In this document: positions 3,201-35,828 of the stretch, in pieces
How positions within the stretch are numbered: position 1 is the stretch's first letter
How the letters are laid out: each line of letters opens with the position of its first letter
Origin: a virus
Reading direction: 5' to 3' (one strand)
IMG/VR virus record: IMGVR_UViG_3300027719_000268
Span: 1-36,425 of that record
DNA: 36,425 nt
Position numbers and translations under genes: made by a program
Notes under the pieces: model-generated
Seen by the model: only the letters and a program-made list of their open reading frames with translations
The model's database searches: none
Told to the model about the DNA's origin: nothing

Positions 3201-4444
3201 TTTTTCTGAAAATACAGGATGCCGAAGGCCTGGGCGTGCTGGTTATTATACCCGTATTTGTATTCAAACACACCCCCGGACGGGTCATTGATGGTCGTTT
3301 GCGCGCCATACAGCCCCACTGCCGCCTCGCCGGTCAATTCGTCCTGTGGCTCCCCGTTCCAGGCAAACCGGATGGTTCCGCCGTCCACTTCCGCCCTGCC
3401 CATGCGGGCCGGGGAAAAAGACATGCTTTTGATTTTTGCGCGGGTGAAGGTTTCCACGGACGTCTTAACAAACGGGTTTATTTTGACCGTCAAATCCATT
3501 GACAGGAAGCTGTCGCACTGGGAAAGCAGGGAGGAAAGAATGCTTTCCTTGCTTTCCGGCTTCCAAAACCCGCCTCCCCAGGAAACGCCGGATCTCGCTG
3601 TATTTACCGCCGTGAAAGACGCGGAATCCAGATACCCGGAAGCAACGCCGAACAATTGCAGAATGGCGTATATCCATGAGCCGGGGCCGGTGGCCGAACT
3701 GTAAGGCCCGGAAAACTGCACCAATGGCGGCAAGATGGCCCCGGATTTAATCCATACCCCGTTGGCGTCCACAATCCCATCGCCGTCGCTGTCCGCGATA
3801 GTCATTTGGGTCGCCTTGACGGTGATTTGCTCGCCCGCCTTGTCCGACTGGGTATAAGTGTATGAATTATCCCACTCACTCACGAAATCCCATTGCCGGG
3901 GGGACCGCACCTTATTAACGGTGTAGGTGTACCCGGTTTTACCCAGGCAATAATACCGGGAACCTGCGGACAAAAACGGGGATACCGGGATAAACGCGGT
4001 CCCCAGGGTGATGGGCACGCGGGCCTCTGTATCTTCTGGCGCGTCGTCAGATGGAAAGTTAGCGGAGACAGCCGGGGTGACCGGGAAATCACCCTTGAGA
4101 TACCGGGTGATGGGGTCCACACAAGTGCAATGGATTTTCCCGTAAGCTTCCACGGCGGTCTCGATATGGAGACACCAGCGCCTGCAAAGCACCCCGTCCA
4201 GCAGCAGCCCGACACAGCACCGCACATCCTGAAAATCGGCCTCGCTTAATGCGCCGGATACGTTTGATATATCAAATTCCGCCTCATTGGGCGCGTATAG
4301 CCGGGACACAATATCAACCCGCATATGGATGCCGGAAAACGATTCCGGGATGATCTTGGCCGCGTAGTCCGTGCCGCCGTAGGTGTACGCCTCCATCCCG
4401 TAATAATACGTCCCGTCGATTTCAAACAGCCAGGTTGCTTTCAT
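278..4444 (-). CDS. Tail tip / host-specificity fibre protein
   Basis: A 1388-residue structural protein, the second largest in the window. The N-terminal 130 residues look like a tail-hub domain (beta-rich, similar in feel to DUF2163-type minor tail proteins). The middle contains Ig-like or carbohydrate-binding beta segments around residues 510-620 and 840-940. A short collagen-like stretch (GATGADG, GAVGPG) sits near residues 945-970, followed by repetitive fibre-like sequence. The last 60 residues are charged and helical. The position after the tape measure and a small minor tail gene fits a lambda gpJ-like hub fused to a receptor-binding fibre. Start: the ATG at 4444 overlaps the stop of the upstream gene as TAATG. 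The tail-tip role is well supported by order and size; domain names are inference. Confidence 0.8.
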   Translation of the reverse strand: MKATWLFEIDGTYYYGMEAYTYGGTDYAAKIIPESFSGIHMRVDIVSRLYAPNEAEFDISNVSGALSEADFQDVRCCVGLLLDGVLCRRWCLHIETAVEAYGKIHCTCVDPITRYLKGDFPVTPAVSANFPSDDAPEDTEARVPITLGTAFIPVSPFLSAGSRYYCLGKTGYTYTVNKVRSPRQWDFVSEWDNSYTYTQSDKAGEQITVKATQMTIADSDGDGIVDANGVWIKSGAILPPLVQFSGPYSSATGPGSWIYAILQLFGVASGYLDSASFTAVNTARSGVSWGGGFWKPESKESILSSLLSQCDSFLSMDLTVKINPFVKTSVETFTRAKIKSMSFSPARMGRAEVDGGTIRFAWNGEPQDELTGEAAVGLYGAQTTINDPSGGVFEYKYGYNNQHAQAFGILYFQKKFDQKYSVRFSTEMSKIAARATLIPGQVVTVYEAFSGLKVYGDSKPVVITSIHIKPDLTVDIDGTVYNHLEQFSDISKTAITPDSSLGSDFEFLSLTKLVTISGETVFKYGPGETVPVPTSVTLTAVLSGDLTGYLWQYWNGTAWADLAAPKTTNTYALAYNNAAWGTNQTLRVKCLSGTYSGEITIAKVADGETGQVNLGIPQMNREISVLGAGLYGVARFGNQTSIRLSDLGFAVGDEIGFSVLARFSGTNAATGQCLVTFYGDPPGSAITYTAGPATTIAVGQTAYERIYRTATIPAGAVYAWFGVHSATITAGVTLYGKQGMVFRGHVMPDYAPCVRDGISTEYIFRRMTTSATPSLTTTAVQTDDYVPSGWTDDSAGVSASYPWEWISSRNRGADGLWGVFAAPTLWSVYTFDAITPVFSNHAHSVPCAVDGTPSSYAGSRATLQIYDGTTLLNFHTVAAAGRFLVGTPTIDPAGGITVGGRSGSGTTTCTIADHSGMSAAVDVVTISYPISITKFDGSTVALTIKQTITKAKTGATGADGVTGAVGPGVVYRGEYVPGDGKVFYNNAVRRDIVKYSGAYYLYAGTDASTQPTWVAGNWAAFGATFSSVATAILLAEDATVLRWLTIGSGGGIRSDGKDTYTDTTAGFWLGYDSGAYKFHIGDASSALKWDGSSLTIDMASGAGLVINSGAGITIKAGGDITLNTTSYLDQGVIKFVTQNRVFTLGPNWADTVSIMPDTDSTGAFYIGDASVRRFDNIVLAADTVFMVGGSIEAPVGWDGYDFYNTLGTGDLGKSTNEWRDLFMNGKIILDDIADPAAVTGRALIYGFLNTNVEVRVQDSAGNKTTISPHHFSMFTPDEAYLFPWSYYSENSFLGRRINVDMYGAIAAIEALTGKKFIHIEEMAEDELLDWDTEQARQADKRKAQIAEFDALPEKDKARGKRPEPLPYEPMPEYLQTRIDHKKRGKNGA

Positions 4445-11195: not shown

Positions 11196-11319
11196 AAGAT
11201 TTAAGATTTAAGATTTAAGATTTAAGATTTAAGATTTAAGATTTAAGAGGAAGCGGTTAAGCTTTTGCTTAAAACTTAATCACTTAAAACTTAAATCTTA
11301 ATCACTTAACACTTAAAAC
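11196..11319. repeat. Heptamer-arm repeat, family B
   Basis: About seven exact AAGATTT heptamers, then a core around AAGCTTTTGCTT, then an inverted arm of AACTTAA-type units. It sits between the tube gene and the gene upstream of it. Confidence 0.85.
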
Positions 11320-13242: not shown

Positions 13243-13325
13243 GAAGTGTTAAGTGTTAAGTGTTAAGTTTTAAGTGATTAGGTGATTAAGTGATTAACCA
13301 CTTAAAACTTAATCACTTAAAACTT
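13243..13325. repeat. Heptamer-arm repeat, family B
   Basis: TTAAGTG heptamers on the left arm and CACTTAA units on the right. It lies between the major head and gp35-like genes. Confidence 0.85.
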
Positions 13326-20828: not shown

Positions 20829-20917
20829 ATTCAGTTTTAAGTTTTAAGTTTTAGGTTTTAAGTTTTAGGTGGTTAAAATGGTTTTTACTTAAAACTTAAC
20901 CACTTAACACTTAAAAC
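20829..20917. repeat. Heptamer-arm repeat, family B
   Basis: TTTTAAG/TTTTAGG heptamers, then CTTAAAA/CACTTAA units inverted. It separates the two terminase genes and reaches almost to the large-subunit start. Confidence 0.85.
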
Positions 20918-21542: not shown

Positions 21543-21661
21543 TCATAATGCATAAAATCATTTTTAAAAAATCCCATATTCCTTCCCCCCTTCAGCCTTT
21601 AGCCTTCAACCCTCAGCCTTGCTTTTCCCTTCAGTCTTCAGCCTTCCCACCTTCAGCCTTG
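21510..21661. repeat. Heptamer-arm repeat, family D
   Basis: Left arm of GGCTGAG/GGGCTGA units, centre containing GGTCATAATGCATAAA and a run of A/T, right arm of CTTCAGC units. It shares its centre with the copy at 22509. It fills most of the roughly 300-bp gap between the small terminase and the next gene. Confidence 0.85.
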
Positions 21662-21670
21662 TTTTTCCCA

Positions 21671-21916
21671 TCATTTTAACGCCCTTCCCAGCCGGTCAAT
21701 TTCCGACACAACCCCCTGCAATTCTCCCCAGGCCATCACCAGTTCATCCATCTGGGTGGAGAGCATGGGTACTTCCAGATCATCCGCGCGAAACAATGCC
21801 GTGTTGAGCCCGGAGCGGATGCTCCGGCAAAGGCCCTCGATCCGAAACCGGAGCCTCACGGCCATGTCCTGTTTTTCCGCCAATACGCCGCGCATGGCGG
21901 CACGTTCCATATTCAT
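21671..21916 (-). CDS. Small helical protein, unknown
   Basis: An 81-residue, wholly helical protein whose ATG overlaps the stop of the upstream gene (TGATG), indicating coupled translation. Alternating charged and hydrophobic residues suggest a coiled coil. It is located between the membrane/lysis genes and the terminase, where Mu-like phages carry small uncharacterised proteins. No family recognised. Confidence 0.6.
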   Translation of the reverse strand: MNMERAAMRGVLAEKQDMAVRLRFRIEGLCRSIRSGLNTALFRADDLEVPMLSTQMDELVMAWGELQGVVSEIDRLGRALK

Positions 21917-22508: not shown

Positions 22509-22621
22509 TGAGGGCTAAGGGCTGAGGGCTGAGGGCTGAGGGTCGTAAGGCATAAATCATTTTTTAAAATCCCACGCTCCGCTTTCCCTTCAGTCTTCGG
22601 CCTTCCCTCCTTCAGCCTTGT
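22509..22621. repeat. Heptamer-arm repeat, family D
   Basis: GGGCTGA repeated, centre GGTCGTAAGGCATAAA, then CTTCAG/CTTCGG units inverted. Second copy of the element at 21510. Confidence 0.85.
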
Positions 22622-24365: not shown

Positions 24366-24952
24366 CGCCGCCACTCCTCAATCCCCTGACTGATCACCGC
24401 CGCAATGTCGGTCTGGTTTTCCGGGTTTGTTAAAAACGCCCGGTCTGCGTCGTTTGCCATGGACCCCAGTTCCACCAGCACGGCAGGGGCAAGGGCATAG
24501 GCCAAAAGGTAAAACCGGGAATCATTGTCCGGATTCGGATGCGGTGTAAATTTTGCCTCACCCGCCGGCGCCACATTGCCGAAAGCGGTTTTCAAGGCAT
24601 TGCGGATACATGCCGCAACGTTTTTTCCGGACACTCTGCCAGGGTATGTCTGCACCGCCATGCCGCTGCCTTCAGGGGTTGCGGCATTGGCGTGCAGGCT
24701 CAGCAGCAGGTCATAACGGCCCATATGCTCCATGGCCACACGTTTCGGGGGTGTGATTTGGGTATCCCCGGACCGGGTCATCTGGCAGTGGTGCCCGGCA
24801 TCTTCCAGCATGGCCCAGAGACGGCCGGCTATTTTCAGATTGATATCGGCCTCCCGGATGCCGCCGCAGGAGGCTCCGGCATCACGTCCCCCGTGTCCTG
24901 GGTCGATGAGGATGCGCAGTGTCGCGGGTGTTTTGGATTTGGTTTGGGTCAT
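24362..24952 (-). CDS. N-acetylmuramoyl-L-alanine amidase (Amidase_3)
   Basis: A 196-residue zinc amidase. The fold begins at LRILIDPGHGGRDAG, with zinc ligands His20, Glu34 and His87 (LSLHANA) and catalytic Glu161 (VLVELGSMAN). It removes the peptide stem from peptidoglycan. No signal peptide or cell-wall binding repeat is visible. As the first gene of the late operon it precedes a second lysin of different chemistry. The ATG at 24952 lacks a strong ribosome site. Confidence 0.92.
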   Translation of the reverse strand: MTQTKSKTPATLRILIDPGHGGRDAGASCGGIREADINLKIAGRLWAMLEDAGHHCQMTRSGDTQITPPKRVAMEHMGRYDLLLSLHANAATPEGSGMAVQTYPGRVSGKNVAACIRNALKTAFGNVAPAGEAKFTPHPNPDNDSRFYLLAYALAPAVLVELGSMANDADRAFLTNPENQTDIAAVISQGIEEWRR

Positions 24953-24968: not shown

Positions 24969-25084
24969 TGATTGGTGATTGATAAGGATTGGCGATTTTT
25001 GATTGGCGATTGGTGATTGAAAAGGCAGCGCGGAGCGCATCATCAAATCAAAAATCAACAATCAACAATCAAAAATCACCAATC
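24969..25084. repeat. Heptamer-arm repeat, family A
   Basis: GATTGGT/GATTGGC heptamers, core GCGCGGAGCGC (25028-25038) with CATCATCAAATC, then inverted AATCAAC units. Confidence 0.85.
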
Positions 25085-25340
25085 TTAAATCCCGTTCGCT
25101 CGTTATTCCCATCCCCCGGACAATCCGGAGGATGGGGGTTTAAGAGGATCAACCGGGAAGCGATTCCGGATGATGTGCCATCATAGGGCACAAATTCACG
25201 GGTGGCGCGGCGTTTCTTCCGATTTTTGCACAGGTTGATGGGGTTTTCAGAGCCGCGACTGTCAGGGAGCGATTCCGGTCGCTTACGCTTGCGGCTCGGA
25301 AAGCAATTCGTGGACATGCACGAGATGGTTGATCTGGAAT

Positions 25341-25383
25341 AAAAAAACCCGGTCATGCGGGATGCATGGCCGGGCGTTTTTTA
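25341..25383. terminator. Bidirectional intrinsic terminator
   Basis: Stem CCCGGTCATG/CATGGCCGGG (25348-25374, one G-T pair) with seven A on the left and a T run on the right, so it can stop transcription in both directions. It would end the repressor transcript and shield the late operon. Confidence 0.8.
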
Positions 25384-25411
25384 TTCGGGTTTTGGGGCTA
25401 ACTGATTATCG

Positions 25412-25515
25412 GGGTTTATTTTTCATTTTTTATCAAATTGATAAATTTCTTTTTTGTAAGTGCTTGTTTTTTATACAACCGACCAAAAAAAATTTATCAA
25501 ATTGATAAATTTTAC
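25412..25515. repeat. Paired-palindrome cassette, copy 1 (ATC/GAT type)
   Basis: A 104-bp cassette bearing TTTATCAAATTGATAAA at 25429-25445 and the identical 17-mer at 25493-25509 (centres 64 bp apart). Between them TTTATA (25470-25475) gives a leftward -10-like TATAAA. It is identical to copy 2 at every base outside the palindromes. Confidence 0.9.
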
Positions 25516-25577
25516 CATCGGCAGGCCTCATTTTTGCCAGCCCAAAACAGGGGGTGGGCGAAAAACCTGACGATGGT
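25514..25577. other. Inverted repeat between the two cassettes
   Basis: ACCATCGGCAGG (25514-25525) and CCTGACGATGGT (25566-25577) are complementary at 11 of 12 positions and enclose a 40-base loop with an inner GCCC/GGGC stem. It could be a hairpin in RNA of either strand or a DNA cruciform. Not followed by a T run. Confidence 0.6.
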
Positions 25578-25579
25578 CA

Positions 25580-25683
25580 GGGTTTATTTTTCATTTTTTG
25601 ACAATTTGTCAAATTTCTTTTTTGTAAGTGCTTGTTTTTTATACAACCGACCAAAAAAAATTTGACAATTTGTCAAATTTTAC
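25580..25683. repeat. Paired-palindrome cassette, copy 2 (GAC/GTC type)
   Basis: Same cassette 168 bp to the right. Both palindromes (25597-25613 and 25661-25677) read TTTGACAATTTGTCAAA instead. All ten base differences between copies lie in the palindromes, and the eight non-central ones form four symmetric pairs, so dyad symmetry is kept. A leftward TATAAA is read from 25638-25643. Confidence 0.9.
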
Positions 25684-25717
25684 TCCATCGCGGCATCAGA
25701 TTTAAAGCACACAAAAA

Positions 25718-26203
25718 TCACCCGGCCTTTCTTACCATATTTTCCTCGTTTTGACACCGCTTTGCAAACTCACCTCGGGCCTCTATTTTTTCCAGCCGGG
25801 ATTCCATGTCCATCAACCGCTTTTCCACTTCAATGGCATGGGAAAAATACCGGATATTCCGTTCCAGTGCGTCATAGGCAATGGGGTTGCCGCTGGTCAG
25901 CACCCTGCGCGCACCCTCCAGCAGGTCCGCAATCATGGGGTCCGCATCCAGGGCTTGGCTTTGGGTGGGCGCGATTGTTTCGGTATCAATCAGGTAGTGG
26001 GGGCCGTGTCCGCTAACCAGCCAGTCGATATTTACATGATAATATTCGCGAATGCGTAACAAGTGTTCAAGTTTTGGCTGCCTTCCATCAACGTATGCCT
26101 GGAACGTGCTTGGCGGGATTCCGGCATTTTTGGCGAAAACAGTATGCTTTCCGCCCGCCTGCTCATTAATGATAATTTGTAGCCGGGAAATTAAATTACT
26201 CAT
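25718..26203 (-). CDS. CI-like phage repressor
   Basis: A 161-residue DNA-binding protein transcribed away from the early operon, the position of the Mu c repressor. Residues 5-65 are a CI/XRE helix-turn-helix: 'HTVFAKNAGIPPSTFQAYVDG' then 'LLRIREYYHVNIDWLVSGHGP', a typical Bacteriophage CI repressor N-terminus. The C-terminal 80 residues are helical and coiled-coil-like, with no S24 protease Ser/Lys pair, so induction is probably not by RecA-driven self-cleavage. Antirepressor-type proteins encoded at 34881 and 35829 may do that instead. Its start codon touches a TTTGCGAA repeat of the early operator. Confidence 0.88.
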   Translation of the reverse strand: MSNLISRLQIIINEQAGGKHTVFAKNAGIPPSTFQAYVDGRQPKLEHLLRIREYYHVNIDWLVSGHGPHYLIDTETIAPTQSQALDADPMIADLLEGARRVLTSGNPIAYDALERNIRYFSHAIEVEKRLMDMESRLEKIEARGEFAKRCQNEENMVRKAG

Positions 26204-26241
26204 TTGCGAATTTTTTTCTTGACACCTTTCGAGTTTGCGAA
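26203..26241. promoter_or_regulatory. Candidate repressor operators
   Basis: TTTGCGAA occurs at 26203-26210 and again at 26234-26241, 31 bp (three turns) apart. The second also completes an inverted repeat TTCG-N6-CGAA (26228-26241). The repeats bracket the early -35 box and overlap the repressor start codon, so bound repressor could block the early operon and control itself. Confidence 0.6.
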
Positions 26242-26247
26242 TAAATG
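26219..26247 (+). promoter_or_regulatory. Early operon promoter (rightward)
   Basis: A perfect TTGACA (26219-26224), a 17-bp spacer and a weak TAAATG -10. It points at the first early gene, which starts at 26309 with AAAGGAG upstream. The spacer overlaps the TTTGCGAA operator repeat. Confidence 0.6.
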
Positions 26248-27761: not shown

Positions 27762-28079
27762 ATGGAAAAGGGTAAGTCCTACCGGCGCATTGGCGCGGTG
27801 AAAATAACGGTTGCCATCATCCGGCATCTGGCCGATCAGAGAAGGCCGGTATCCGGGCAGGAAGTGAGCGAATCTCTCGGCATCCCGCATGCCACGGTTA
27901 TGTGCCATCTGGCCACATTATCCGACGAAGGGCTGATCAGGGAAGTGGGCGGGGCGGTGGAGCCGGGCATGGGTCTGGCCCTGTTCTGGGCCAGATATCG
28001 CAGTATTGCAGAGGGCAAAATAGAAACATTAAAACAACAACTTAAAGAATTGGAGATTACTGAAAATGGGAATGACTGA
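27762..28079 (+). CDS. Winged-helix regulator, IclR/MarR-type HTH
   Basis: A 105-residue protein with GAGG upstream. Residues 12-65 form a winged helix: 'ITVAIIRHLADQRRPVSGQEVSESLGIPHATVMCHLATLSDEGLI'. The C-terminus is a coiled coil (AEGKIETLKQQLKELE). It overlaps the next gene by 14 bases. Probably a transcription regulator of early genes; the target is unknown. Confidence 0.7.
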   Translation: MEKGKSYRRIGAVKITVAIIRHLADQRRPVSGQEVSESLGIPHATVMCHLATLSDEGLIREVGGAVEPGMGLALFWARYRSIAEGKIETLKQQLKELEITENGND

Positions 28080-29049
28080 AATCCAGGCTGCTGATGAAAT
28101 CTATGCCGTGGCAAGACAAAAAGCGGATGCGGAAATGACGGTGCTTCGCGGCGAAATGGACGCCGTTCGGGCAGAATCGTTTGCCCTGGGCGTGCTGAAA
28201 AAGATCGAATACGACCGGGCGCACAATGAAATGCTGAAATATGTGGTGCTGCACCGCATTAAACAAGCCAAGGATTACCGCAAGGGCGGCATGACCTGGG
28301 CCGGTTTCTGCGAGGCCATCGGAGAGCCGATGCATGCCGTTGACCGGATCACCAAAGACCTGCTGCCGTTATATGAGGCTTTCTCGGGGAAGCTGATGGA
28401 ATTGTCCGGCGTTGGGCTGAGTAAAATCCGGTATCTGGGCCGATCGATATCATCCGAAGCCGCTGCCATTGAAGACAACCATCTGGTGATTGACGGAAAC
28501 AAAATTCCCATTGACCCGGAGCACAAAGAGGAAATCGAAGCGGCCATTGACGCCATGCGGGAAACCGGCGCAGAGGCCCTCGAAGAAGCCAACGCATCCA
28601 TCCGGGCAAAGGAAAAGGTTCTGGAATCCAAGGAAAAAGTGATCCAGAAGCAGGAAAAAGACCTTATGAAGCTGGAAAAAGCCATGGCCCACCAGACCAA
28701 GTCCCCGTTTTCCGAGGATGTGGAAAAATTCAACACGAACACGGAAACCCTGGCCAAAACCCTGATCGAAATGACCAGCGCCCTGGTGGAATCCGTGCCG
28801 GAAAACGCCTCCGGGTTGATGAAAAGCGCTGTTCTGGAGGCTCTGGCAACGATCCACCGGCATGTGATCGCCATGCACCGGGAGGCCATGGAACGGTATG
28901 AAGACCCGGAAGTATATAATTCCCCCCTGGATTCGGCGGATAACTTCGGGGCCAACGCGGTATATCCCGAGGACATGAAGGATTTCTGGACCGAAGGTCC
29001 GAAATATATTCCACCCCCGAGCGCGACCCCTGATCCTGATGCCAAATAA
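28066..29049 (+). CDS. Coiled-coil protein upstream of the transposase, unknown
   Basis: A 327-residue protein. Residues 15-60 are helical, and 'GMTWAGFCEAIGEPMHAVDRITKDL' (about 75-100) looks like an HTH-like segment. Residues 165-215 are a strong coiled coil (EALEEANASIRAKEKVLESKEKV...). The C-terminal 50 residues are acidic and proline-rich. It sits between the winged-helix gene (14-base overlap) and the transposase (15-base gap), so it is co-translated with the transposition machinery. A role in transposition or its regulation is plausible; the family is not recognised. Confidence 0.65.
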   Translation: MGMTEIQAADEIYAVARQKADAEMTVLRGEMDAVRAESFALGVLKKIEYDRAHNEMLKYVVLHRIKQAKDYRKGGMTWAGFCEAIGEPMHAVDRITKDLLPLYEAFSGKLMELSGVGLSKIRYLGRSISSEAAAIEDNHLVIDGNKIPIDPEHKEEIEAAIDAMRETGAEALEEANASIRAKEKVLESKEKVIQKQEKDLMKLEKAMAHQTKSPFSEDVEKFNTNTETLAKTLIEMTSALVESVPENASGLMKSAVLEALATIHRHVIAMHREAMERYEDPEVYNSPLDSADNFGANAVYPEDMKDFWTEGPKYIPPPSATPDPDAK

Positions 29050-30807: not shown

Positions 30808-30816
30808 ACCTGATTG

Positions 30817-30893
30817 TTTTAAGTTTTAGGTTTTAAGTTTTAAGTGGCAGTGATTAAGCTTTTGCTTAAAACTTAATCACTTAACACTTAAAA
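30817..30893. repeat. Heptamer-arm repeat, family B
   Basis: TTTTAAG/TTTTAGG units, core AAGCTTTTGCTT as at 11196, inverted CACTTAA units. Confidence 0.85.
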
Positions 30894-30918: not shown

Positions 30919-32106
30919 ATGGCGAAAAACGACCCAACCCCGGCAATCCGCATCAAGAAACTCTTGATCGATTGCAGCATCAACCAAACGGATCTGGCCC
31001 GGATGGTTTCCGCATGGCTGGCCCGGCCCGTAAGCCGCACCACCATGAATCTGGTCATCAACCGGGGATACGTACCGGCCACCCTGCCGGGGATCCGGAA
31101 GGCTGTGGAGGATGTGCTCATCCGGAGACCAAAGGCCCAAAAATGGCTTGCGGACCGAAAAATGAACCCAAGTGATGTGTGGCTGCCGGAAGAGAGCGAA
31201 CCGGGCATTCATCATTCATCACTCATCATTCATCATTTAAAAGTGGAGGTAGAAATGATAACCCAAGAAGCGATGAAGCATTTCAAATTATTCAGGAATC
31301 CCTTTGTAAACGACATCCAGAAAGAAGCGGATATCTACATGTCCGACGAGCACCGGTATATCGAGGCCGCCATGCTGGATGCGGCCCGGCACGGGGGATT
31401 TATCGCCGTGATCGGGGAAGTGGGGTCCGGCAAAAGCGTGATGCGCCGCAAGGTCATCGATCAATTAAAAAAGGACGGCGACACCCTCGTGGTCTATCCC
31501 CAGATGATCGACAAAACCCGCCTTACCGCCGCAAGCATTTGCGACGCCATCATCCAGGACACCAGCTCCGAAAAATGCAAATGCAAGCTGGAGGACAAAA
31601 CCCGGCAGGTGCAGCGCCTGCTGATGGACCGGAGCAAAGCCGGTTACCGGGCCGTGCTGATTATCGAGGAGGCCCATGATTTAAAAATCCAGACCCTCAA
31701 ATATCTCAAACGATTTTACGAGCTTGAAGACGGGTTCAAAAAACTGCTGGGTATCGTTTTAATCGGTCAAACCGAACTCAACAACGTGTTTGACGAAGGC
31801 AAATATGTGGACATGCGGGAGGTGATCCGGCGCGTGCAGGTGGCCGAAATCCGGGGACTGGACGGCAACTTAAAAGATTATCTCAATCTCAAATTCAAGC
31901 GCATCGGCCGGGCTGTGGAGGATGTGTTCGCGGGCGACGTGTTCGACGCCATGGGCCGCAGACTGTCCGGCACCGGCAAAGACGGGGTGGGCAGCGTGAG
32001 CCATGCCTACCCGCTGCTGGTCAATAATTTTGTGGCGCGGGCCATGAATCTGGCCTGCGAACTCGGGGAACCGAAAATCAGCACCGATGTGGTTATGGCG
32101 GTTTAG
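30919..32106 (+). CDS. B: AAA+ transposition activator, MuB-like, with N-terminal HTH
   Basis: A 395-residue ATPase that would deliver target DNA to the transposase. Residues 10-70 are an HTH ('IKKLLIDCSINQTDLARMVSAWL'), as in MuB. The AAA+ domain has Walker A GEVGSGKS (166-173), Walker B AVLIIEEAH (245-253) and a sensor segment LIGQTE (282-287). The two parts are joined by 'PGIHHSSLIIHH' (about 95-106), encoded by an ATTCATC heptamer repeat. Immediately after it, GGAGG (31245-31249) precedes an in-frame ATG at 31255 (Met113), so the ATPase may also be made alone. The fusion may be original, or created by the repeat. Confidence 0.9.
   Translation: MAKNDPTPAIRIKKLLIDCSINQTDLARMVSAWLARPVSRTTMNLVINRGYVPATLPGIRKAVEDVLIRRPKAQKWLADRKMNPSDVWLPEESEPGIHHSSLIIHHLKVEVEMITQEAMKHFKLFRNPFVNDIQKEADIYMSDEHRYIEAAMLDAARHGGFIAVIGEVGSGKSVMRRKVIDQLKKDGDTLVVYPQMIDKTRLTAASICDAIIQDTSSEKCKCKLEDKTRQVQRLLMDRSKAGYRAVLIIEEAHDLKIQTLKYLKRFYELEDGFKKLLGIVLIGQTELNNVFDEGKYVDMREVIRRVQVAEIRGLDGNLKDYLNLKFKRIGRAVEDVFAGDVFDAMGRRLSGTGKDGVGSVSHAYPLLVNNFVARAMNLACELGEPKISTDVVMAV
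31205..31238. repeat. Heptamer repeat, family F, inside the MuB-like gene
   Basis: Units ATTCATC and ACTCATC repeated. Seven-base units read in three frames give a seven-residue period (HHSSLII). A shorter copy overlaps the holin-like start at 23796-23818. Confidence 0.85.
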
Positions 32107-33457: not shown

Positions 33458-33715
33458 ATGAATCTGGCCCTGACAAAATGGCAAACCGACATGCTCGAAG
33501 TGTTTTTTGACATCGCAAAAACCGAGCTGGATATGGGGAAACCCGGCATCCTGCTGGCCCAGATCACCAAAAATTCAGACGGCACGGCAAGCATGGCGGT
33601 CGCATACGCCGAACACGAAACCGCCATAAAATTGCAGGAAGTGACCGGCATCGATAAAGGCAAAATGACGGCGGCAGAGGTTCTTGTCTTTTACCCGCTA
33701 AACGACGAATCATAA
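33458..33715 (+). CDS. Small alpha/beta protein, unknown
   Basis: An 85-residue protein with GGAGG just upstream, three bases after the preceding gene. N-terminal helix (WQTDMLEVFFDIAKTEL) followed by strands (GILLAQIT, ASMAVAYA, VLVFYPL). No family recognised. Co-translated with the DUF3850-like gene. Confidence 0.6.
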   Translation: MNLALTKWQTDMLEVFFDIAKTELDMGKPGILLAQITKNSDGTASMAVAYAEHETAIKLQEVTGIDKGKMTAAEVLVFYPLNDES

Positions 33716-33722
33716 AGCGAAA

Positions 33723-33823
33723 CCCTGCCCCCGCAGGGTCGCCGGAACGTGGCGGTTCCGGCCTGATGAGCAGCCGTAGGCCGGGATTCCAATCCCGGCA
33801 TCGTAGGAGCGGGCCATGCCCGC
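33723..33823. repeat. Cluster of four perfect palindromes
   Basis: CCCTGC/GCAGGG (33723-33738), CCGGAAC/GTTCCGG (33742-33761), CCGGGATT/AATCCCGG (33781-33798) and GCGGGC/GCCCGC (33809-33823). The last two belong to families G and H. None is followed by a T run. The cluster lies in the 133-bp gap before gemA. Confidence 0.8.
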
Positions 33824-34769: not shown

Positions 34770-34803
34770 CTGAATAAGTTACGTTTGAACGTAACTTATT
34801 CAG
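34770..34803. repeat. Perfect hairpin, GAATAAGTT family, copy 1
   Basis: 16-bp arms with a 2-base loop: CTGAATAAGTTACGTT and its complement. Preceded by AAACCTAT. It lies upstream of the BRO-like gene. Confidence 0.85.
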
Positions 34804-34819: not shown

Positions 34820-34849
34820 GAATAAGTTGTCTTTAAAGCCAACTTATTC
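34820..34849. repeat. Hairpin, GAATAAGTT family, copy 2
   Basis: GAATAAGTTG/CAACTTATTC arms around TCTTTAAAGC. It lies 31 bases before the start of the BRO-like gene and could mask or present its ribosome site. Confidence 0.8.
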
Positions 34850-34880
34850 CCAAATTTTAATCAATAATAAGGAGGCGAAC

Positions 34881-35555
34881 ATGAAAGAAATCACAACATC
34901 ACCGGTAAAAGTTCAAAACGGCGAAGATGGCATCGAGATGTATGAATCCAAAGGCGGTTTCTGCATGACCACCGAGTTTCTTGGTCAGTGCGTCGGATAT
35001 GCACACCCAAAAGTGAAAATGGCCCAACTCTTTAAACGTCATAAAGAGGCCCTCGAACCCCATAGGTTTATCATCAATAAAGATGACAAACCTATGGGGA
35101 ATAAGTTACCTTCAAAGGTAACTTATTCCCCCATCGGGCAGCCCTCTTTTTTCTATGACGAGGAAGGCATCTTAAAAGTGTTTTTGCTGGCCGGAACCCC
35201 GCAAGCAAAAGAATTCGGCCCGAAAATAATCGACCACCTGAAGCATCTGAACGCTCTGCGCATCCAGCAAATAGAAAAATACTGGTTCAAACACCGCCCA
35301 TACTGGCCGGAAATCCGCGACCGCGTCATGATGGGCCAAACCTTCAGGGAAATCGCCGATGCCGTGGGCCGAAGCGCGGCCAGCATCCGGAACGCCGTCC
35401 GTCGCATGATCGAGGTCGGCATCCTCCAGCCCGCGCGGGCGTTGCAATCCGTGACCGGCTCCACCAAAAAGACCCTGATCCGCTACACCCGAAAATTTAT
35501 GGGCGATGACCGCCAGTTATCGCTGCCCAACTTTGGCCCCATCAAAATCCCTTGA
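34881..35555 (+). CDS. BRO-N-type antirepressor-like regulator with C-terminal HTH
   Basis: A 224-residue protein. I start at MKEITTSPVK with GGAGG upstream. Residues 20-125 resemble the BRO N-terminal domain: 'MTTEFLGQCVGYAHPKVKMAQLFKRHKEALEPH' and 'SFFYDEEGILKVFLLAGTPQAKEF'. Residues about 60-84 between these (FIINKDDKPMG, NKLPSKVTYSP) are encoded by two adjoining hairpins of the GAATAAGTT repeat family and look like an insertion. Residues 140-190 form an HTH ('FREIADAVGRSAASIRNAVRRMIEVGIL'), closely matching the C-terminus of the Rha-type protein downstream. Likely an antirepressor or late switch protein. Confidence 0.75.
   Translation: MKEITTSPVKVQNGEDGIEMYESKGGFCMTTEFLGQCVGYAHPKVKMAQLFKRHKEALEPHRFIINKDDKPMGNKLPSKVTYSPIGQPSFFYDEEGILKVFLLAGTPQAKEFGPKIIDHLKHLNALRIQQIEKYWFKHRPYWPEIRDRVMMGQTFREIADAVGRSAASIRNAVRRMIEVGILQPARALQSVTGSTKKTLIRYTRKFMGDDRQLSLPNFGPIKIP
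35058..35099. repeat. Hairpin inside the BRO-like gene (CCCCATAGG)
   Basis: CCCCATAGGTTT and AAACCTATGGGG enclose an 18-base interior with a near-complementary ATCATC/GATGAC pair. Its last four G are shared with the next hairpin, so in RNA the two stems compete. Confidence 0.8.
35096..35131. repeat. Perfect hairpin, GAATAAGTT family, copy 3, inside the BRO-like gene
   Basis: 17-bp arms with a 2-base loop: GGGGAATAAGTTACCTT and its complement. Preceded by AAACCTAT as in copy 1. Substitutions relative to copy 1 are paired across the stem. Confidence 0.85.
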
Positions 35556-35581
35556 CATTTAAAACCCTTCCGGGTTATCCT
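35552..35581 (+). promoter_or_regulatory. Promoter of the C4-like RNA / rha transcript
   Basis: A perfect TTGACA (35552-35557, overlapping the stop of the BRO-like gene), an 18-bp spacer and TATCCT (35576-35581). Predicted start near 35588, at the first base of the RNA's leading hairpin. Confidence 0.65.
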
Positions 35582-35587
35582 GCCCCC

Positions 35588-35669
35588 GTCACTGAAAAAA
35601 CAGTGATCGGGTTTGGAAGCCCGGAAACTGAGGCGGACCGCCGCCAATTCTTTCATAGGCGGTTTTTTT
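35588..35669 (+). ncRNA. C4-type antisense RNA candidate
   Basis: About 82 nt between its own promoter and terminator. Elements in order: hairpin CACTG-A6-CAGTG (35590-35605); hairpin CGGG-TTTGGAAG-CCCG (35608-35623) whose loop TTGGAAG (35613-35619) is complementary to CTTCCAA downstream (35748-35754); and GGCGGACC (35632-35639), complementary to GGTCCGCC downstream (35762-35769). Two short antisense boxes matching the leader of the following antirepressor-type gene are the design of C4 RNA in phages P1/P7, where C4 blocks ant translation. The match to the family is by architecture and remembered consensus. Confidence 0.7.
35637..35669 (+). terminator. Intrinsic terminator of the C4-like RNA
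   Basis: Stem ACCGCC/GGCGGT (35637-35642 with 35658-35663) followed by seven T. It should release the short RNA, with read-through needed to express rha from the same promoter. Confidence 0.75.
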
Positions 35670-35670
35670 A

Positions 35671-35828
35671 TGGGTCCGCTGGTTCTGATTCTCCCCCTGG
35701 GCGGATCAGGCAGGGAGGCGAAAGCCTCGCCGGTTCCTCGGTCCGGTCTTCCAACCTGCTTGGTCCGCCCTTTTGCGTTTGGAAGCGCAGGGCGGTAACT
35801 CTATTTTTTTTTACTGAGGAGAACGCAC
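35671..35828 (+). promoter_or_regulatory. Structured leader of the rha gene, target of the C4-like RNA
   Basis: Contains GGTCCGC (35673-35679) and both target boxes CTTCCAA and GGTCCGCC, a GAGGC-GAAA-GCCTC hairpin (35715-35728), and a large hairpin CCGCCC...TGCG-TTTGGAAG-CGCA-GGGCGG (35765-35795). The large hairpin's loop repeats that of the upstream RNA. A T run follows at 35804-35812, then GAGGAG and the rha ATG. Binding of GGCGGACC to GGTCCGCC would break this large hairpin, so it may work as a switch. Confidence 0.65.

Follow-up and report, generated by a model that had tools for sequence, protein, structure and literature searches.

The window, that is the whole stretch of 36,425 bp of an IMG/VR virus record analysed here, belongs to a Mu-like phage with a B3-type layout. 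Its late genes run leftward from position 24952, and its early genes run rightward and encode a Ner-like protein, a CII-like protein, an IclR-like HTH protein, a 327-aa protein (28066-29049), a MuA-type transposase and a MuB-type protein. The same gene order is found in B3, Ps59, JBD25, JD18 and others. Two 104-bp cassettes, copy 1 at 25412-25515 and copy 2 at 25580-25683, lie between the late genes and the CI-like repressor gene (25718-26203, minus strand), which adjoins copy 2. Both are read here on the minus strand, which is the sense of the homologous gene segment described below. Each cassette is flanked by terminator-like hairpins, one at 25348-25374, strong on both strands, between copy 1 and the late genes, and one at 25566-25581, also present on both strands, which separates the two cassettes.

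Each cassette consists of two perfect 17-bp palindromes, the putative operators, around a 47-bp core. In copy 1 the palindrome is TTTATCAAATTGATAAA, at 25429-25445 and 25493-25509, with the core at 25446-25492; in copy 2 it is TTTGACAATTTGTCAAA, at 25597-25613 and 25661-25677, with an identical core at 25614-25660. The palindrome centres are 64 bp apart within a copy, and the copies are 168 bp apart. When the two 104-bp blocks were compared, all 10 mismatches were found among the 34 bases that belong to palindromes, and the remaining 70 are identical (P = 5e-6 if mismatches were placed at random). The same five positions are changed in each palindrome, as two mirror pairs plus the centre, and both palindromes of one copy carry identical changes. 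The flanks directly outside the cassettes have diverged between the copies, with indels. In the region 25385-25717 we observed four palindromes with arms of at least 8, where 5000 dinucleotide shuffles gave 0.06 on average and 3 at most. In both copies the right-hand palindrome sits in the middle of a longer perfect palindrome of 25 bp. No other copies of either palindrome, up to 3 mismatches, are present in the window. The description of paired palindromes switched as a set, which was the starting point of this analysis, was thus confirmed, with the changes being mirror-paired except at the centre.

A scan of related loci for matched palindromes revealed that the gene immediately preceding that of the MuA-type transposase contains such pairs; in these relatives it is annotated as hypothetical or as DUF3102 (B3ORF13). 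An alignment search for this DUF3102-like gene gave 80 loci (L137-L216), nearly all of which contain two odd palindromes following the pattern N4-AC-S-GT-N4'. The palindromes occur in two different reading frames, and every pair detected among these loci has its centres exactly 76 nt apart. Counting arms of at least 5, a matched pair is present in 64 of the 70 distinct genes (0.45 expected from synonymous-codon shuffling). The arms vary among phages and agree within a phage (GCTG, CCTG, GGTG, CGTG, CCGG, GGTC, CCGC, CCGA, GCGA, ACGA, GGTA, CGTA, CCAA, CAAG, GAAG and CGCG were seen). The expectation that palindromes in related prophages would vary as matched pairs was therefore strongly borne out on these homologous sites, which also lend support to the proposal of two operator specificities carried in one frame. 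The relatives L094/L095, L125 and L126 have no clear sites. Other branches of the family have one long palindrome with a constant centre and variable arms (L104, 7893-7918; L105, 7264-7289; L108, 27919-27946; and L045, L085, L088, L090, L092, L097 and L102), such as CAAAA-CGGAC-AACGTT-GTCCG-TTTTG in B3 and CAAAA-GCGCC-AACGTT-GGCGC-TTTTG in Ps59. In L089, one gene of the family contains two different long palindromes with a common CCATGG centre, AAAACCTGACCCATGGGTCAGGTTTT and CCTGCGCCATGGCGCAGG (3757-3782 and 3797-3814), which is possibly another case of two specificities.

The arms were then compared with the HTH of the protein encoded by the same gene, using 28 distinct combinations of helix and arm. 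Residues are numbered p3, p4, p5 and p8 in the motif LG-x-S-p3-p4-p5-x-x-p8, and bases are counted outward from the palindrome centre. Glutamate at p8 goes with G as the third base in 11 of 11 cases and never otherwise (P = 5e-8), aspartate at p4 with CG in 13 of 13 (P = 3e-8), lysine at p5 with A (P = 4e-7) and arginine at p3 with G (P = 1e-5). More generally, p3 specifies the sixth base (G with R; C with V, A or K), p4 the fifth and fourth bases (CG with D, mostly GT with E, mostly CT with Q or A) and p8 the third base (G with E, C with R, A with others). The one exception is L216, whose site is half-mismatched. In a column-wise association analysis, from which the residues coded by the palindromes themselves were set aside, the top columns were helix residues 106, 107, 108 and 111 (numbering of the reference L138).

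Comparison of individual phages points in the same direction. The proteins of B3 and Ps59/Fc22 are nearly identical outside an HTH block of about 60 residues which contains the palindrome, and the arms change along with the block, with the neighbouring CII-like and IclR-like regulators differing by at most one residue. The recognition helix is identical in the very divergent L093 and L107, and so is the palindrome, TGCCGACGTCGGCA. Common descent of adjacent DNA might produce some association between helix and arms, but a factorised pattern such as RSREQIDEDI/GGTG, RSREQVDRDI/GGTC and MSREKADQDI/GGTA would be hard to obtain from ancestry. From the covariation and this pattern we infer that the DUF3102-like protein binds the palindromes in its own gene. 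Mor was also considered as a reader of the palindromes and rejected: its alleles differ between B3 and Ps59 yet do not track the palindromes, and B3 and JD18 have similar Mor proteins and different sites.

In the early operon of the window, it is 28066-29049 (plus strand) that directly precedes the transposase gene. Homology to the family was detected by phmmer (L073 to the window protein, 1.5e-5; window protein to L100, 4e-60), and the protein is 44-46% identical to the nearer relatives L226-L230. The phrog_4623 profile matches L227 with 2.6e-7, and the window protein directly with just E = 0.032. The Pfam DUF3102 gathering score (24.4) is exceeded by B3ORF13 (26.5) and KP12 (30.2) and is not reached by the window protein, L227, L103 or L100; for this reason we call the window protein DUF3102-like and not DUF3102. 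AlphaFold gave a confident HTH with a predicted recognition helix at residues 89-97 (28330-28356, plus strand), M88, H89, A90 and R93 aligning with the specificity residues, within a poor whole model (pTM 0.29). A fold search of the PDB with this model found no meaningful match, and a profile search of PDB sequences gave no match. The segment homologous to the site block of the relatives is present in the window gene (28381-28467, plus strand), the sites being absent from it. No palindrome pair occurs anywhere within 28066-29049, which sets the window apart in a family where the pair is common, although not universal.

The nearer relatives, collected by a search over the orders of two host genomes, have in-gene site pairs that closely follow the HTH, at a spacing of 66 bp. 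L230 contains GGACAAnTTGTCC twice at this spacing, and L227 contains it at the second position, the first being imperfect. The sites of L229 and L225 are GGCGGAnTCCGCC and GGAAAAnTTTTCC, respectively; those of L224, L226 and L228 are imperfect, and some were picked by inspection. In this branch, the rule linking p8 to the third base holds in 8 of 8 relatives (L100 included) and arginine at p4 is accompanied throughout by G as the fifth base; the p3 rule fails to carry over. The window cassettes likewise present two matched odd palindromes at a fixed spacing, 64 bp as compared to 66 in L230 and 76 in the Pseudomonas-type branch.

The cassette core also resembles a piece of this gene. The minus strand of the 47-bp core can be aligned to the stretch of coding sequence that separates the paired in-gene sites in L226-L230 (FLGIxFNKIRYLGKSI), with one 2-nt gap with respect to L227 that accounts for the spacing of 64 instead of 66 bp. 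The pairwise alignment on which this homology is based scores 44, with a shuffle mean of 24.7 and none of 8000 dinucleotide shuffles scoring as high. Among 3487 AT-rich 47-mers, that score was reached by the true gene copies and the two cassettes alone. In a wider scan of 49-mers the cassettes scored 49 and unrelated sequence up to 45. The plus-strand core does not align with the spacer above shuffles; the minus strand alone does. Because the cassettes were missed by a nhmmer profile derived from the gene segments, we regard the case for homology between cassette spacer and in-gene spacer as good but not beyond doubt. A broken reading frame makes the cassette non-coding.

The code suggests an assignment of the two specificities. 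The third base is C in both copies, as predicted from R93 at p8. The window protein has H89 at p4, whereas L227 and L230 have arginine at both p4 and p8. The fifth base is G in copy 2, as in these arginine-type siblings, and A in copy 1, which favours copy 1 as the partner of the resident protein. The core of copy 2, GACAAnTTGTC, exactly matches the in-gene sites of L227 and L230. The resident protein is therefore probably matched by copy 1, and the sibling type with arginine at p4 and p8 probably by copy 2.

Further extragenic cassettes were sought in several collections. Patterns of the exact core and of the copy 2 palindrome pair had no match in the collection of viral contigs, and blastn of phage and plasmid records gave no relevant match. 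In 395 Desulfobacterota genomes there were merely short AT-rich chance matches, such as one in L116 near a ferredoxin-like/oxidoreductase operon. The amidase neighbour used as bait retrieved no relatives, whole contigs of the window-like relatives G396, G397 and G398 contained no extragenic pairs, and no Rfam family was found at the cassettes. A second phage with an extragenic cassette was thus not found in the viral contigs, phages, plasmids and Desulfobacterota searched.

Taken together, these comparisons make it probable that the cassettes serve, outside the gene, as operator pairs for the DUF3102-like HTH protein that 28066-29049 encodes, kept in two specificities. In most relatives the palindromes would serve as targets within the coding sequence of the regulator itself, beside the part coding for the recognition helix; helix and targets would then change together, as the observed covariation indicates for presumed binding partners. 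The window gene lacks such sites; instead, what would be an operator-spacer-operator unit stands in two non-coding copies between the repressor and the late genes. The symmetry and internal match preserved within each copy make it likely that two dimers bind per cassette, at the fixed 64-bp spacing and possibly with looping over about six helical turns. The likeliest output of such binding would be autoregulatory looping or a roadblock, or the sensing or titration of a sibling phage's regulator. A more specific and rather doubtful extension is that copy 1 is an operator pair for the phage's own regulator and copy 2, in the same frame, one for the regulator of sibling phages, forming a self/non-self detector with two channels, made from a part of the regulator gene that has been moved. 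With such a detector the phage could sense a resident or superinfecting relative, or titrate it.

The cassettes are 2.4 kb away from 28066-29049 and neighbour the CI gene, which is a point against ownership by the DUF3102-like protein. Operators of lambda-type CI and Cro are 17-bp odd dyads in spaced sets, a form that the cassettes share, and the repressor gene ends 40 bp from copy 2. The cassettes might therefore be operators of the adjacent CI-like repressor, or of competing CI and Ner proteins in a lambda-like switch, and the intergenic region between the repressor and the early genes does contain TTTGCGAAT twice, about 31 bp apart, which loosely resembles TTTGACAAT. This region, however, has no cassette-type palindrome, so CI would require a second type of operator; the repressor relatives L085 and L004 have no such sites beside the repressor; and both the matched-pair logic and the core homology indicate a different gene. 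We consider CI ownership unlikely. The family of the presumed owner is moreover unrelated to CI and Cro, and the cassette sites, in contrast to lambda operators, appear to derive from a coding segment. More generally, of the interpretation given in the original prediction the two matched-pair specificities stood, while the owners it listed (CI, Ner, MerR or Rha) received no support, since the covariation indicates the DUF3102-like regulator upstream of the transposase.

Nor was its placement of the late promoter at the cassettes supported. The cassettes are upstream of the late operon, and a minus-strand arrangement TTGATA/TTGTCA-N19-TATAAA is present, so that the palindrome pairs might be sites for an activator (Mor/C-like, or the MerR-like product of 34367) of leftward late transcription. 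A 19-bp spacer is poor, however, the promoter scan gave nothing above chance and no convincing promoter in the core, and the strong two-strand terminator-like hairpin at 25348-25374 separates the cassettes from the late genes; we find this reading very unlikely. The Mu C dyad is TTAT-N6-ATAA, and the cassettes have in common with the sites of the Mu late activators C and Mor an AT-rich interrupted dyad. The suggested resemblance to Mu C is weak, the dyad of copy 1 having N7 instead of N6 and copy 2 lacking it, with the hairpin between site and late genes. It is scarcely probable that the cassettes are remnants of an earlier DUF3102-like allele that has decayed into two functionless fragments. 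They do resemble frame-broken copies of a gene segment, but the 70 non-palindrome bases are all identical between copies whose flanks have diverged, and the palindromes are perfect with paired changes, a pattern that decay would not produce. Finally, the 25-nt arms of a cassette are 92% complementary, with folding z-scores of -5.1 and -6.0, as would be expected if it acted as a folded strand (an RNA or ssDNA stem-loop) and the paired changes preserved the stem and not protein binding. A stem, however, requires only arm-to-arm complementarity and not that each arm be a perfect palindrome, and the in-gene homologues covary with the HTH; we give this explanation almost no weight. An exact copy of a possible transposase end site, ACCTTTCGAGTTT, was also looked for in relation to the cassettes, and the idea was rejected, the single copy being located elsewhere.

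The DUF3102-like regulator, still the preferred owner, is a distant homologue of the DUF3102 proteins of B3-like phages (phrog_1748/phrog_4623; B3ORF13, JBD25 gp15), with which it has in common a gene upstream of the transposase and an HTH followed by a long coiled coil, the family showing paired or single palindromes with variable arms. The known B3-type members have their sites in their own gene and in one specificity, whereas in the window they are outside the gene, present twice and in two specificities. The function of this family is unannotated. The plasmid autoregulator KfrA of RA3, which binds an operator of five 9-bp direct repeats over its promoter, likewise has an N-terminal HTH, a long alpha-helical tail and autoregulation (PMC7783346); this comparison concerns only how the proteins work, and no sequence match of the window regulator to KfrA was found. 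A comparative study of D3112-type phages describes variable repressor and Ner genes in general terms only (PMC4378225). By annotation, the D3112-type group and Mu have no gene of such size beside the transposase, and in the literature we found no description of in-gene, covarying operators in B3-like transposable phages. An HTH regulator with paired palindromic operators is made of known elements; what is new is the location of the presumed operators within the sequence that codes for specificity, along with the relocated cassettes of two specificities. With target sites in the regulator's own gene, beside its specificity-determining part, one exchange would swap lock and key together, and the window shows such sites outside the gene, kept in two specificities. 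The analysis suggests a likely function for the phrog_4623/1748 gene, which is widespread among transposable phages and unannotated, as well as a code for its DNA recognition, and the code would make the specificity groups of B3-like phages predictable from sequence. The near-perfect correspondence between HTH and in-gene palindromes across 80 phage loci merits a separate study beyond the window cassettes.

Some other features were noted during the analysis. Two long perfect palindromes, at 34770-34803 (34 bp) and 35096-35131 (36 bp), have GAATAAGTTAC...GTAACTTATTC in common and different centres; one lies upstream of and one inside a BRO/antirepressor-like ORF (34827-35555), which is another gene with an embedded long palindrome. 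At 35575-35770, upstream of the Rha-type gene, there is a C4 antisense RNA with its a1/b1 target and an isrK match; together they make up, where the early operon ends, an antirepressor control unit like that of P1. A type II hammerhead ribozyme (Rfam RF02276, 67.9 bits) is located at 33715-33779, just after the gene 33458-33715, in the early region before the GemA gene. Downstream of the repressor of L004 (6556-7300), near the contig end, are about seven copies of a motif like CACACCTTGCGAGT, perhaps transposase end sites; a single similar motif occurs in the window, at 26223-26242 between the repressor and the early genes. Heptanucleotide tandem repeats, many of them intergenic, occur in the window at 11196-11319, 13244-13325, 20833-20867, 21588-21673, 22509-22542, 24987-25091, 30816-30845 and 31206-31237.
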